DNA of 64,000 bases from Paracoccus sp. S3-43 (GTDB lineage Bacteria; Pseudomonadota; Alphaproteobacteria; Rhodobacterales; Rhodobacteraceae). Below the pieces are notes generated by a model. It ran no database searches. It was given only the letters and a program-made list of their open reading frames with translations, and was not told the origin of the DNA. Location of the stretch: contig NZ_CP119082.1 of assembly GCF_029027965.1 (NCBI RefSeq), positions 2,396,001-2,460,000 on the forward strand. The letters run 5' to 3'. Shown here one piece after another: positions 48,223-61,141 of the stretch (positions are counted from its first letter, which is position 1; every line of letters starts with the position of its first letter). The translations under genes were made by a program, and so were the position numbers.

Positions 48223-48236
48223 TGGTTGCGGGGGCA
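48223..48236 (-). repeat. attL, left copy of the tRNA-fMet end
   Basis: TGGTTGCGGGGGCA is identical to 61128-61141, the CCA end of tRNA-fMet read on the plus strand. Flanking bases differ on both sides. It marks the left junction of the island. Confidence 0.7.
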
Positions 48237-48243
48237 AGCTATG

Positions 48244-48274
48244 ATCTTTACTTGCGACCGGAGCAAGTAAAGAT
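48244..48274. repeat. Perfect 12-bp inverted repeat just inside attL
   Basis: ATCTTTACTTGC (48244-48255) is the exact reverse complement of 48263-48274, with a seven-base spacer, only eight bases inside the left junction. It could be a recombinase or excision-factor site, or a regulator operator. The following 48275-48514 holds no convincing gene; the longest short frame is 33 codons at 48285-48386, with no good ribosome site. Confidence 0.6.
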
Positions 48275-48514
48275 GGTTGCAGGTATGCCCCTCAATCAGT
48301 ACCTGCAATTCGCCCCAGTCGAACACACCGCAAGAACTCTTCTGGCATTGGAGGGTAGTGGCGGTCCGTTTCGCGCCGCAGCGTAATTTCCGCCTGCCCA
48401 CTCACACGAAGAATTACAGGGAAGGCAACTTGCCGGGGCGGATCGACGACGCCGACATGCTACATACACAGGTCGCCCCTGACAACGACAGGCCATGCGG
48501 TATTCCACAATCGC

Positions 48515-49759
48515 TTACCGATCCAGCGTCTTCAGGATGCTGCCACACCTGGACCGGATCGCCTTCTCGACTTCGTCGAGCATCGGATGATCGCCTGCCG
48601 ACATGGCCGCGACGGCTGCTCTCGCATCGGCAAGCCGTTCCTGGATCGCCTCGGCCAGCACTTTCACACGCTCAAGCGCGACCCTTGGTGCGAGCCCGCA
48701 TTTTTTCGCCTCGCGCGCCCAATGCCGCCCCTCGATATACTCCCCGCGGCGTTTGTCATCGACATCAAGGGCAAGGTTCTCGGTAATCCCGGGCCAGATC
48801 TTGGCGCACATCACATCGTAGATCGGGGCAAGTTCGATACCATCGCCCCGGATCAGGATGGAATAGTTCTTCAGATGCGCATCCGTGTTGCAGCACAGCA
48901 CGTTGAAGACCATGGCGTCCCACAGCCGGAACACCTCGGCCGCGCCTCCGATGGCGCGCAGCCGGTCCATCATGGCGGCGAAACTGCCCTTCGGACCGTT
49001 CGTCTGGTTGTGCTGGTATTTCGCCGAGGGTGGCAGGCCAAGCGCCTGACAGAAGTCCTCCTGATGCAGCCGCCGCAAGGCCTCGCCCTGCTGCAATCGG
49101 TCATAACGCCCGACCAGTAGATAGAACCGCTGCCCCGCCCTGCCCGTACTAACATCCGGTGCACGCAGGCCGACCAGCCGCGCCAGTGTCAGGCACAGCG
49201 CCTCATTCTGCACGCCGCCCCAGAGGCGATCGCTGTCCGGCTTCAGGATATGGCTCGAGGCTGTGCCGTTGACCGGGATGGCAATACGACTGCCCTCCAA
49301 AACGCGCACGGCCAGCTTGCTCTGCACTCCGGCAAGCGACATGGAGACCCCGTCTTCGCCTGCGAGGAATGGCTTTCGCGGGAGTTCGCCGATGATCCGT
49401 TCGAGTTCCTCTTCAGAGGCAACCTCGCGCACCTCAGAGCCGGTCATGCCGCGCTCGGCGAAGGAAATCGCCCCCGACGTGTCGCGCCCCACCCGTCCGA
49501 GCAGGGCCAGCACATCGGTATGAGGAACATCAAGGATGCGCGCCATCATGCGGATGGCATCATTGTCTTCGGGCAGCAGGTTGATCAGCCACGGAGCAAG
49601 CATCGGCCAGCCCCATGGCTCGGCGCTGAGCGGCATGGTTGTCGAGAGCGGAAAGGCACCGTCCTGCGCCAGCCATGCCGGATCATAGCGGAACTCCGGG
49701 GCGGTGCTTTCGCCCGTGATGATCTCGCCGACCGGATAACGCTCATAGAACAGCTGCAT
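48515..49759 (-). CDS. hipA: HipA-family toxin kinase
   Basis: HipA toxins are Ser/Thr kinases that inactivate glutamyl-tRNA synthetase or related targets and cause growth arrest. The 414-residue protein has the N-subdomain (FPLSTTMPL, LINLLPEDN), the SLAGVQSKLAV strand-loop, the ATP-binding ILKP Lys, and the catalytic loop NTDAHLKNYSIL at about residue 290 with the metal-binding IYDVM at about 311. All key kinase residues are present. It starts 11 bases after hipB, so the two are one operon. It lies at the left end of the island and probably helps to keep it. Confidence 0.93.
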   Translation of the reverse strand: MQLFYERYPVGEIITGESTAPEFRYDPAWLAQDGAFPLSTTMPLSAEPWGWPMLAPWLINLLPEDNDAIRMMARILDVPHTDVLALLGRVGRDTSGAISFAERGMTGSEVREVASEEELERIIGELPRKPFLAGEDGVSMSLAGVQSKLAVRVLEGSRIAIPVNGTASSHILKPDSDRLWGGVQNEALCLTLARLVGLRAPDVSTGRAGQRFYLLVGRYDRLQQGEALRRLHQEDFCQALGLPPSAKYQHNQTNGPKGSFAAMMDRLRAIGGAAEVFRLWDAMVFNVLCCNTDAHLKNYSILIRGDGIELAPIYDVMCAKIWPGITENLALDVDDKRRGEYIEGRHWAREAKKCGLAPRVALERVKVLAEAIQERLADARAAVAAMSAGDHPMLDEVEKAIRSRCGSILKTLDR

Positions 49760-49770
49760 GGGTCATCTGC

Positions 49771-50034
49771 TCACAAAGGCGGCAGCATGGAGCCGGAAGA
49801 CTTCGGCCCCTCGGAGAACAGACCCTCAATCCGCATGCCCAGCGCCTCGGCCGCAGCCAGAGCCGGGGCAAGGTAGCTGGTCCCCTTTCCTCGCTCGAGT
49901 TCACTGACGAAGCGTCGATTGGTGCCGATCATGCTAGCGAGGTCCGCCTGTGTATGCCCAAGCGCCTTGCGGCGCGCCCGGATGGCTGCGCCGAACTCTT
50001 GAGCCAAGCGTTCTTCTGCCGTGGACAGGCCCAT
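49771..50034 (-). CDS. hipB: HipB-family antitoxin
   Basis: The 87-residue protein is an XRE-type DNA-binding protein: FGAAIRARRKALGHTQADLASMIGTNRRFVSELERGKG is the HTH region (visible as KALGHTQADLA and NRRFVSELERG), followed by a short helix (ALAAAEALGMRIEGLF) that packs on HipA. The start at 50034 is favoured by GAGG six bases upstream; the ATG-like start at 50049 would add five residues. It represses its own operon, probably at the dyad at 50052-50067. Confidence 0.92.
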   Translation of the reverse strand: MGLSTAEERLAQEFGAAIRARRKALGHTQADLASMIGTNRRFVSELERGKGTSYLAPALAAAEALGMRIEGLFSEGPKSSGSMLPPL

Positions 50035-50051
50035 AAAATCCTCGCACAAAT

Positions 50052-59014: not shown

Positions 59015-59029
59015 TGCTGGCCTCCGTTC

Positions 59030-59043
59030 TATATCCTGATATA
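59030..59043. promoter_or_regulatory. Candidate VapB operator
   Basis: TATATC-CT-GATATA is a perfect 6+6-bp palindrome centred 22 bases before vapB, in an AT-rich stretch. VapB/VapBC complexes bind such palindromes to repress their own operon. The rest of 59015-59306 has no convincing gene. Confidence 0.45.
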
Positions 59044-59306
59044 TAGCCGATATTATCCTTACAAACAAGGGATGTCAGCGATGCCGCGCGACTCGCACCA
59101 TAGACCGTTAGTGCAGAAGAAAACTGCGCGTTCCCGCCAGTATTTTCCATATGCTGTGATGCGCTACGCTTCGCCAGACCGCGCGGAAGACGCCGATCAC
59201 GCCTCCTCCACCGCCAGAATTACGGGTTTGATTTCAGTTGCTTGGCTGGCTTCAGGTGGCGATGCTGCGAAGCATGACCTTGCGAGCCCCCGGAAACACA
59301 GCAAAG

Positions 59307-59462
59307 ATGTCAGGACGAGAGCGCGAAGCGTTACTCGAATCCCTGATGATCGACGAGCCGGAACTGACGTTCACCCCGTGCGGCAATCCCGATCCGCGCC
59401 TTCTGCGTCTCGTCGAGTTTCTGGCGCGGCAGGCAGCGCGGGAATGCTACGCCGAGGAGTGA
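59307..59462 (+). CDS. Small protein upstream of the recombinase, 51 residues
   Basis: A short frame, SGREREALLESLMIDEPELTF then PRLLRLVEFLARQAARECY, follows an AAAG start region and ends 54 bases before the recombinase. It is acidic and helical, soluble, with no known family. Small genes in this position often accompany large serine recombinases and may be cofactors or directionality factors; that is inference. The ATG at 59307 is preferred over more upstream in-frame starts. Confidence 0.5.
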   Translation: MSGREREALLESLMIDEPELTFTPCGNPDPRLLRLVEFLARQAARECYAEE

Positions 59463-61087
59463 AGATGACGCGTCGACGGGGGAAGCGCACCTCCTGATGC
59501 CGAAAGGAGATGTGCAGTGAAAGTCGCGATCTACGCCCGCTATTCGTCGGACAATCAGCGCGAGGCGTCCATCGCCGACCAGTTCCGCATGTGCCGCCTG
59601 CGGGCGGAGAAGGAAGGCTGGACGGTGGTCGAGGAATATTCCGATCACGCCATCTCCGGCTCCAGCATGATTCAGCGTCCCGGCATCCAGGCGCTGATCA
59701 TGGATTCCTCGCGCGGCCGCTTCGACCTGATCATGGCCGAAGCGCTCGACCGGATCAGCCGTGACCAGGAAGACATCGCCGGCATCTACAAGCGCATGCG
59801 CTATGCCGATGTGAGGATGTTCACCCTGTCCGAGGGCGAGATCAGCGAATTGCATGTTGGCCTGAAGGGCACGATGAACGCGCTGTTCCTGAAAGATCTC
59901 GCCGACAAAACCCGGCGCGGTCAGCGCGGGCGTGTCGAGGCGGGCAAGTCGGGCGGCGGCAATTCCTACGGCCATGATGTCGTCAAGAAGTTCGACGCCA
60001 ATGGCGAGCCCATTCGCGGCGACCGGACCATCAACGAGGCGCAGGCTGATGTCGTGCGTCGCATCTTCCGCGACTACGCCGCCGGCAAGTCGGCCAAGAC
60101 CATTGCCTTCGCCCTGAACAGGGACCGTATCCCCGCGCCGTCGGGCGGAGACTGGGGGTTCAGCACGATCAACGGCAACCCGAAGCGTGGCAACGGCATC
60201 CTCAACAACGAGATGTATGTCGGCAAGATCGTCTGGAACCGCCAGCGTTTCGTCAAAGACTCCGATACCGGCAAGCGCCAGGCCCGGCCCAACCCAGAAT
60301 CGGAATGGGTCATTCAGGAGGCGCCGGAGCTGCGCATCCTCGATGACGACCTCTGGAACGCCGTGAAGGCGAGGCAGGACGAGAACCGGACTGAGCGGGA
60401 CGAGAGCGGCGTCGCCGACGTCCGCAAGATGAACTACCGACGCCGGCCGAAATATCTCTTCTCGGGCCTGACCAAATGCGCCTGCTGCGGCGGAGGATAC
60501 TCCGCCATCTCGGCCACGCTGATCGGCTGCTCGACAGCACGGAACAAAGGCACCTGCGACAACCGAACCAACATCCGCCGCGACGAATTGGAGACGCGCG
60601 TGCTGAATGCGCTTCGCACCAAATTGTCGATCCCGAATTGTTCGCTCACTTCTGCGCGGTGTTTACGCAGGAGATGAACCGGCTGCGGATGGAAGGCCGC
60701 GCCGGTATCGCCGCGGCCGAGGCCGAGATGGCGAAGATCGACCGGGAACTCGACACGCTGCTCAACCTGATCCTCAAGGGCGGCGCGGCTGACGCCATCA
60801 ATTCCAAGATGGTCCTGCTCGAACACCGCAAGAAGGAGCTGGCTCTGTTCCTGGCCGAGGCCGAGGAACCGCCTCCCCTTCTGCACCCCTCGATGGCGCT
60901 GCAATACCGCAGGCGGGTGCAGCAGCTCTATGAAGCCCTGCAGGACGAAGAGGAAGAGAAGCGGGTCGAGGCAGCAGACATCCTGCGCTCGCTGGTGGAA
61001 AAGATCGTGCTGACGCCGGTGGACGGCAAGGTGGAAATCGACGTTCAGGGCGATCTCGCTGGAATCCTTACGATTTCCGCACAAACG

Positions 61088-61111
61088 AAAAAGCCCGCCG
61101 AAGGGGCGGGC
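61088..61111 (-). terminator. Island-borne terminator now next to tRNA-fMet
   Basis: GCCCGCC (61093-61099) pairs with GGCGGGC (61105-61111), loop of five; on the minus strand the stem is followed by TTTTT. It lies 17 bases beyond the tRNA-fMet 3' end and inside the island, so it can end the rRNA operon transcript in place of the displaced native terminator. Confidence 0.65.
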
Positions 61112-61127
61112 GGATCGCAAGTGACGA

Positions 61128-61141
61128 TGGTTGCGGGGGCA
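61128..61141 (-). repeat. attR, right copy of the tRNA-fMet end
   Basis: TGGTTGCGGGGGCA: the first 11 bases are the last 11 of tRNA-fMet on the minus strand. Identical to 48223-48236 at the left junction. Confidence 0.7.

Follow-up and report, generated by a model that had tools for sequence, protein, structure and literature searches.

A serine-recombinase island at the initiator tRNA gene of Paracoccus sp. S3-43 and the tandem attachment units of its relatives

The window analysed here is a stretch of 64,000 nucleotides from Paracoccus sp. S3-43 (contig NZ_CP119082.1, C1:2396001-2460000 of a 3.22-Mb, single-contig genome). It carries a 12.9-kb genomic island at the 3' end of a gene for initiator tRNA (tRNA-fMet), and comparison with related elements supports its insertion there by a large serine recombinase, acting on an attachment (att) site of the element (attP) and one of the bacterium (attB). 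In many relatives attP appears as a tandem array of units, and the unit used follows the tRNA allele of the host. The tRNA gene, on the minus strand, closes an rRNA operon, with the 5S and then the 23S rRNA beyond it. A preliminary description made from the sequence alone had proposed such an island, based on a repeat at 48223-48236 and 61128-61141 of which the second copy would be the tRNA-fMet 3' end. The 14-mer, TGGTTGCGGGGGCA, is indeed exact at both places, and ARAGORN and Rfam confirm the tRNA. The ends of the island and its recombinase comprise the following features.

48223..48236 (+), TGGTTGCGGGGGCA, the left att core, with GG (48233-48234) as its central dinucleotide
48223..48273 (+), att unit of 51 bp, half of attP, forming the left end of the island; also found in relatives
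48225..48386 (+), left-end reading frame, corresponding to the relatives' recombinase tail across attP: VAGASYDLYLRPEQVKMVAG...GGPFRAAA and a stop
48244..48255 (+), left-end att arm ATCTTTACTTGC, which repeats the right arm in inverted orientation
48274..48285 (+), TGGTTGCAGGTA, what is left of a second att core; some relatives have an intact GA or AG there
59517..60677 (+), 5' portion of the large serine recombinase, with Resolvase, Recombinase and Zn-ribbon domains; a frameshift breaks the gene towards the 3' end
60620..61171 (+), 3' portion of the recombinase, read in a different frame from an approximate start; crosses a hairpin and the att core and stops at the tRNA anticodon
61117..61128 (+), GCAAGTGACGAT, the right att arm
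61128..61141 (+), right att core, with GG as its central dinucleotide (61138-61139, tRNA nucleotides 66-65)
61128..61204 (-), tRNA-fMet (CAT), the target gene (ARAGORN and Rfam)
61265..61379 (-), 5S rRNA

The recombinase matches Pfam PF00239, PF07508 and PF13408 above cut-off, the domain set of a large serine recombinase. Its frame is broken near 60.6 kb, leaving an open frame of 402 codons, short of an intact large frame; the 40 other listed matches have 550-683 codons in 37 cases and 471-497 in three, and the frame of the detached 3' part is continuous in relatives. The window copy is probably inactive. By sequence, the nearest solved chain is the TP901-1 integrase, for the N-terminal part only. 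The second tRNA-fMet of the genome (G000:C1:292618-294329; L003, L205) also has a serine recombinase alongside, with about 54% identity and a frame that ends immediately ahead of the core.

The ends have the anatomy of a genomic island at a tRNA gene, with a direct repeat at both ends and one copy in the tRNA 3' end. In close relatives, the recombinase end typically reads GCAAGTAAAGA followed by TGGTTGCGGG. The left end of the island reads TGGTTGCGGGGGCAAGCTATGATCTTTACTTGC, which forms an inverted repeat with the right arm. The two ends therefore carry the two halves of an attP, and the recombinase adjoins the tRNA, in agreement with the island proposed earlier. The arms pair around core bases 11-12: 10 of 14 pairs form at this centre, and 1-5 when the centre is moved by up to 6. 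Across 29 sites (a set with many homologous members, and with one tRNA half that is not an attP), dyad symmetry is likewise highest between bases 11 and 12 of the core, with 9.6 of 14 pairs against 1.9-5.1 at shifts of 1 to 6. The attP is thus dyad-symmetric about a dinucleotide that it has in common with attB. In the standard tRNA layout, core bases 11-12 are nucleotides 66 and 65, at the junction of acceptor and T stem, and they would be the place of the serine recombinase's two-base staggered cut. For Bxb1, passages of Durrant et al. (PMC10083194) give the central dinucleotide as established in governing recombination.

The island has only one intact dinucleotide, or key. The relic TGGTTGCAGGTA lies 51 bp past the left GG core; L087, L092 and L101 have it too, and L088 has an altered version (L and G numbers denote loci and genomes). 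The island is accordingly a one-key member of its family or a degenerate array, having kept the GG key and a relic. With a frameshifted recombinase and GG as its one intact key, it is probably immobile, a captive of its site.

The preliminary description regarded large serine recombinases as less often reported at the initiator tRNA, but they are no rarity there: 340 relatives were found in the collection, and 26 of 385 sampled alphaproteobacterial genomes match at E <= 1e-80 (the window's own included, and not all at tRNA-fMet). Among the best 80 of these 340, all from named genomes, tRNA-fMet 3' sequence follows directly after the att core or array in 66, so that the expected recurrence of this recombinase beside tRNA-fMet was borne out. 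The tRNA is complete in 55, partial in eight (with a match of no more than about 19 nt in L039) and truncated where the contig ends in three. Of the remaining 14, 11 lead into other sequence, eight of them readable as the left end of another element, and three end before the core. The named hosts belong to several alphaproteobacterial orders. Searches of the class, the family and other families gave few close relatives. Homologues at about 40% identity may still end in tRNA-fMet (L201, L202); others do not. Some distant recombinases overlap other tRNAs in frame, namely tRNA-Glu (L198) and another tRNA-Met (L195).

Many relatives carry two or three att units in tandem, spaced 51 bp (n = 20), 96 bp (n = 9) or 54 bp (n = 1) apart. 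Their keys are GG, GA and AG, all frequent spellings of tRNA-fMet nucleotides 66-65. Among the genomes listed, about 16 hosts spell these nucleotides GA, about eight AG, two AA, one GC and the rest GG; the tRNA pattern matched 99 of 143 sampled alphaproteobacterial genomes and fixes the first ten core bases, so that other spellings of those bases go unseen. Counted from the recombinase, the main subtype has the order GG, GA, AG. A second has GA, AG and then GG at the tRNA junction (L078, L081, L084), and a third has AG, GG, GA at one locus (L268), with AG then GG in L225, L227 and L237. The three orders are cyclic permutations of the same set. L270 has GA, AG, GA ahead of a GA tRNA half. An array outside the three main orders occurs on an IMG/VR contig (L242), with a 59%-identical recombinase, AG and GG cores 54 bp apart and no tRNA behind them.

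The unit joined to the tRNA goes with the spelling of the host. In the main subtype, GG hosts use unit 1 (52/52), GA hosts unit 2 (7/8) and AG hosts unit 3 (3/3), an association with a Fisher p of 8.6e-11 if the ends are independent. These 63 ends are non-redundant by exact sequence; the 52 include that of the window, L039 enters as a partial tRNA of GG type despite its short match, and L243 is left out. Across all subtypes, 19 of 106 ends with a tRNA have skipped units, and in none of the 19 is a skipped unit the host dinucleotide. That unit choice follows the host tRNA allele is well supported by these sequence comparisons. An array attP, a host-matched unit and a recombinase frame that overlaps the att site would together explain the island and its family, and this joint reading is very probable.

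The third component concerns the end of the recombinase. Of 125 non-redundant ends, 121 have a distance of 1 mod 3 between the start codon and the first core, with 22 in-frame lengths represented (231 loci gave 145 that could be parsed, with a single match over about residues 12-365 and a core, and these gave the 125), and all 30 unit spacings are multiples of three. In the integrated state, the frame typically stops 41 nt past the core start, at the anticodon, with a tail of the form …VAGxGFEPxxFRL. Read instead into the left end, it closes with tails such as …LFRTAA, …FRAAA, …IPKLAA, …HQLAA, …SLAA and …LRSAA. Among 40 distinct tails, 28 end in -AA, through 12 codon pairs and all three stops, compared with 468 of 19,768 background frames and with 3 and 0 when the same places are read in the two remaining frames. 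Five of 45 rows had been dropped by eye as non-att-like or tRNA (L151, L183, L076, one L066 match and L270), the count before being 28 of 45. Relatives thus have an att site within the coding frame and a C-terminus that depends on integration; the frameshifted window copy does not. Tails in -LAA or -AAA resemble ssrA/ClpXP tags, and by that analogy the -AA tail of the circular form may be a protease tag.

It could be objected that the frame through att site and tRNA is fortuitous, with the true C-terminus upstream of the core. Run-through into a tRNA is a familiar oddity of annotation, and both recombinases of the window's own genome are out of frame at the core; they make up two of the four exceptions among the 125 ends (the window copy and L205), the others being L039 and L168. 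Incomplete matches, left out of that count, include at least two more that are out of frame (L190, L256). Many tails are homologous, and third-position bias is clear in one group only: differences at codon positions 1/2/3 number 20/18/83 in the KLAA group, and 81/47/79, 37/29/28, 50/38/58, 15/13/18, 1/3/2 and 4/2/4 in the others. Against a fortuitous frame stand its conservation across so many lengths, the codon bias of the KLAA group and the excess of -AA ends over background, and this explanation is unlikely.

The left ends bear on whether the units form one attP at all. The tandem 51-bp units might be scars of earlier insertions and excisions. Tandem elements of various kinds crowd the tRNA-fMet hot spot, and single-unit elements exist. 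Scars would not make the unit number track the host allele, and where both ends were recovered, the left end holds the complementary units. Left ends were recovered for 11 of the 19 genomes or records searched. In GA hosts they read GA, AG (L281, L300, L301, L302): L281 and the right end L249 lie in the same 349-kb Haematobacter plasmid, L300 shares a contig with L019, and L301 and L302 are on other contigs than their right ends. In GG hosts they read GG, GA, AG (L278, L287, L288, L289), with L278 and the right end L252 in the same Novosphingobium replicon. In an AG host the left end reads AG alone (L305, on the same contig as L052, the Rhodopseudomonas faecalis element). Several points weaken this partition: no left end was found for the genomes of L041, L042, L036, L037, L057, L040, L033 and L251, L302 sits behind an apparent arm of another element, L288 begins at a contig end, and two GG-host left ends are incomplete arrays (L298, GG, AG; L297, GG). 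Since complementary units occur within the same element (L249/L281 on one plasmid, G939 and G940 on single contigs), the scar model was rejected, and it is very improbable. Left ends reading GG, GA, AG are also present in Paracoccus (L094, L260, L262, L263), unpaired with right ends.

A further objection is that unit choice is set by recombinase lineage or host phylogeny and that the correlation with the dinucleotide is simply inherited. The labels are clustered on the recombinase tree, as few changes being reached in 2 of 200 shuffles (all groups together), and a sign test on starred branches has only five independent pairs, of which four agree and one shows no difference (p 0.125). L159 (G006), a GA host entered at unit 1, has its unit and its recombinase in common with GG-host elements, the protein being identical over 372 aa to those of L044, L047 and L048. 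Identical recombinases nevertheless use different units in different hosts. One such set, identical over 372 aa, has unit 1 in L040 (Parvibaculum, GG) and unit 2 in L042/L249 (Sphingomonas/Haematobacter, GA); a second, of the same length, has unit 2 in L041 (Kaistia, GA) and unit 3 in L037 (a Roseovarius bin, AG). On the tree, host state changes a minimum of eight times and unit seven, nearly in step, and in the subtype with the GG unit last, GG hosts use that last unit (L078, L081, L084). An inherited correlation is accordingly hardly credible.

L159 is also the one GA host of the main subtype that departs from the choice of unit by host allele. On the same contig, about 150 kb away, lies a single-unit left end reading GA (L258). 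If this candidate is the left end of L159, the element carried a GA key and likely conforms after all, although in an attL (left attachment site) the contributions of host and element are not wholly separable. Gene conversion between rRNA operons had been considered as the source of the oddity, the tRNA copy L160 of the same genome having the arm in common without a recombinase match; it was dropped in favour of the GA left end. Other irregularities also count against a strict rule. In L073 and L080 the dinucleotide of the first core is unusual for the type of arm, their left ends having been sought only in the general scan. L074/L221 looked odd in a similar way, but a same-contig left end (L272) is of single-unit GG type.

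That the 14-bp repeat arose by chance and the boundary lies elsewhere is a negligible prospect: two window matches are common when two mismatches are allowed (1.22 expected; at least two in 31 of 100 shuffles), but the repeat is exact (0.0016x expected per 64 kb and 0.08x per 3.22-Mb genome under independent bases), it has dyad arms and matching left ends in relatives (L087, L088, L092), and the junction is also seen without the island. Genome-wide there are three exact copies, the two tRNA-fMet genes and 48223. For the boundary, the anatomy of the att sites is ranked above the repeat statistics.

Under the joint reading of array, matched unit and overlapping frame, a circle with all its keys would enter a cell, and the recombinase would recombine the key that fits the resident tRNA, with crossover at core bases 11-12. 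The host allele would select the unit because strand exchange needs matching dinucleotides, mismatched ones presumably aborting it. Units before the chosen one would stay at the recombinase end and the rest would pass to the far end. The tRNA would be kept whole, since the core restores its 3' end. Because the recombinase frame is read through the att site, integration would exchange its C-terminus for one coded by the tRNA. The array may have been retained for a wider host range, and the exchange of tails may alter the stability of the recombinase. The full proposal, in which the three-key array serves GG, GA and AG tRNA alleles and a ClpXP-type degron of the circle is also swapped for a stable tRNA-antisense tail, is held tentatively, with slightly more doubt than confidence.

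The left flank and the cargo of the island are as follows.

48135..48222 (.), left flank with TTGAGTC direct repeats and a hairpin; meets a complete tRNA-fMet in six other Paracoccus loci
48515..49759 (-), HipA-like toxin kinase (Pfam HipA_C, E 4e-49)
49771..50049 (-), HipB-like helix-turn-helix antitoxin
50322..51254 (+), XRE-family regulator
51308..53686 (.), insertion bounded by terminal inverted repeats of 19 bp, with a transposase of the IS3 family
53971..54945 (-), SoFic-like protein with a Fic domain
55189..57706 (+), IS21-type element (IstA/IstB) with 38-bp inverted ends
58281..58712 (-), PIN-domain (VapC-like) toxin
58709..59068 (-), putative antitoxin to the PIN toxin, assigned solely from its position, with no family match

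An uninterrupted site had been predicted in relatives that lack the island, and this prediction stood in part. The flank (about 48135-48222), hairpin included, directly joins a complete tRNA-fMet at the predicted junction in L091 (80% identity), in L097, L098, L099 and L103 (73%, near-copies of each other) and in L104 (89% over 44 bp). No syntenic empty site was found via the imuA region; this region is present in eight of 29 other genomes at 67-74% identity, and in the seven with known tRNA positions the nearest imuA-tRNA pair is 50 kb apart and in a different relative orientation. In the window, insertion sequences and then putative imuA/imuB/dnaE2-type genes, assigned by reading frames, lie to the left of the island. 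Flanks with paired short direct repeats adjoin many of the 70 tRNA-fMet sites in 27 other Paracoccus genomes, and also tRNA halves elsewhere. A serine-recombinase match lies within 5 kb of 14 of the 70 sites, adjacent only in part of them. Rather than pristine chromosome, the left flank probably represents the terminus of an older element carried at the tRNA, and that element was probably of the tyrosine type.

Tyrosine integrase genes adjoin tRNA-fMet halves at several loci (L030, L040, L045, L080, L236 and others), and serine elements enter these halves. A motif scan of 20 loci found no tyrosine integrase beside complete tRNA copies; beside tRNA halves it matched in 4 of 21, with several more recognisable by eye. 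Since tyrosine integrases adjoin the halves into which serine elements insert, the footprint of one element at tRNA-fMet is the target of the next. The tRNA-fMet copies of one genome can also share an 11-bp att arm outside the tRNA (L003 and window 61117-61400; L160 and L159), in G006 even where the copy has no recombinase match (L160). This sharing possibly reflects gene conversion between rRNA operons.

The cargo agrees with what had been described, with HipA/HipB, Fic, a PIN toxin, insertion sequence (IS) elements and the serine recombinase at the right edge. Among the island proteins scanned, which cover part of the frames, there were no relaxase or mating-pair genes to mark an integrative and conjugative element; the transposase-like frames at 52628-53636 were left out of this family scan. 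One IS has an identical 94-bp stretch outside the island (44652-44745) and inside it (51308-51401). For the PIN protein there is a weak match to the model called tRNA(fMet)-specific VapC (60 bits against a cut-off of 140). VapC-like or GNAT/DUF1778 toxin–antitoxin-like pairs adjoin the recombinase in several relatives (L255, L257, L249, L253).

Serine integrases are valued for a central dinucleotide that can be exchanged to give orthogonal sites. This family appears to have evolved such swapping itself, with GG, GA and AG keys in one array. An array of this kind would widen the host range without any change in the protein, and would explain how one unchanged recombinase sequence occurs in hosts that differ in their tRNA allele. 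That the recombinase frame and attP overlap further suggests a built-in difference between the protein before and after integration.

The recombinase has the same Resolvase, Recombinase and Zn-ribbon domains as large serine recombinases and integrases of the TP901-1, Bxb1, phiC31 and TndX types, and its sites have the same short shared core with a central dinucleotide. Unlike those systems, it targets the 3' end of tRNA-fMet, its tandem units have different dinucleotides, and its frame overlaps attP and the tRNA. Reconstructed attB/attP pairs and engineered swaps of the dinucleotide are described by Durrant et al. (PMC10083194), and the words tRNA and tandem are absent from the searched main text. 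Neither tandem attP sites of this kind nor the tail swap was found described in passages of that paper, and neither is known to have been described elsewhere. Tyrosine-integrase islands at tRNA genes have the same target gene and leave partial tRNA copies at the far end. The recombinase class differs, and the tyrosine-linked partial copies seen here are mostly of 45-48 nt, to the anticodon, whereas the serine family shares about 11-14 nt. In the integration-dependent immunity of mycobacteriophages such as BPs, the att site lies within a gene, and integration alters the C-terminus and removes an ssrA-like tag. There, the altered gene is the repressor and the enzyme a tyrosine integrase; here, the altered protein would be the serine recombinase itself, with the role of the tag suggested by analogy.

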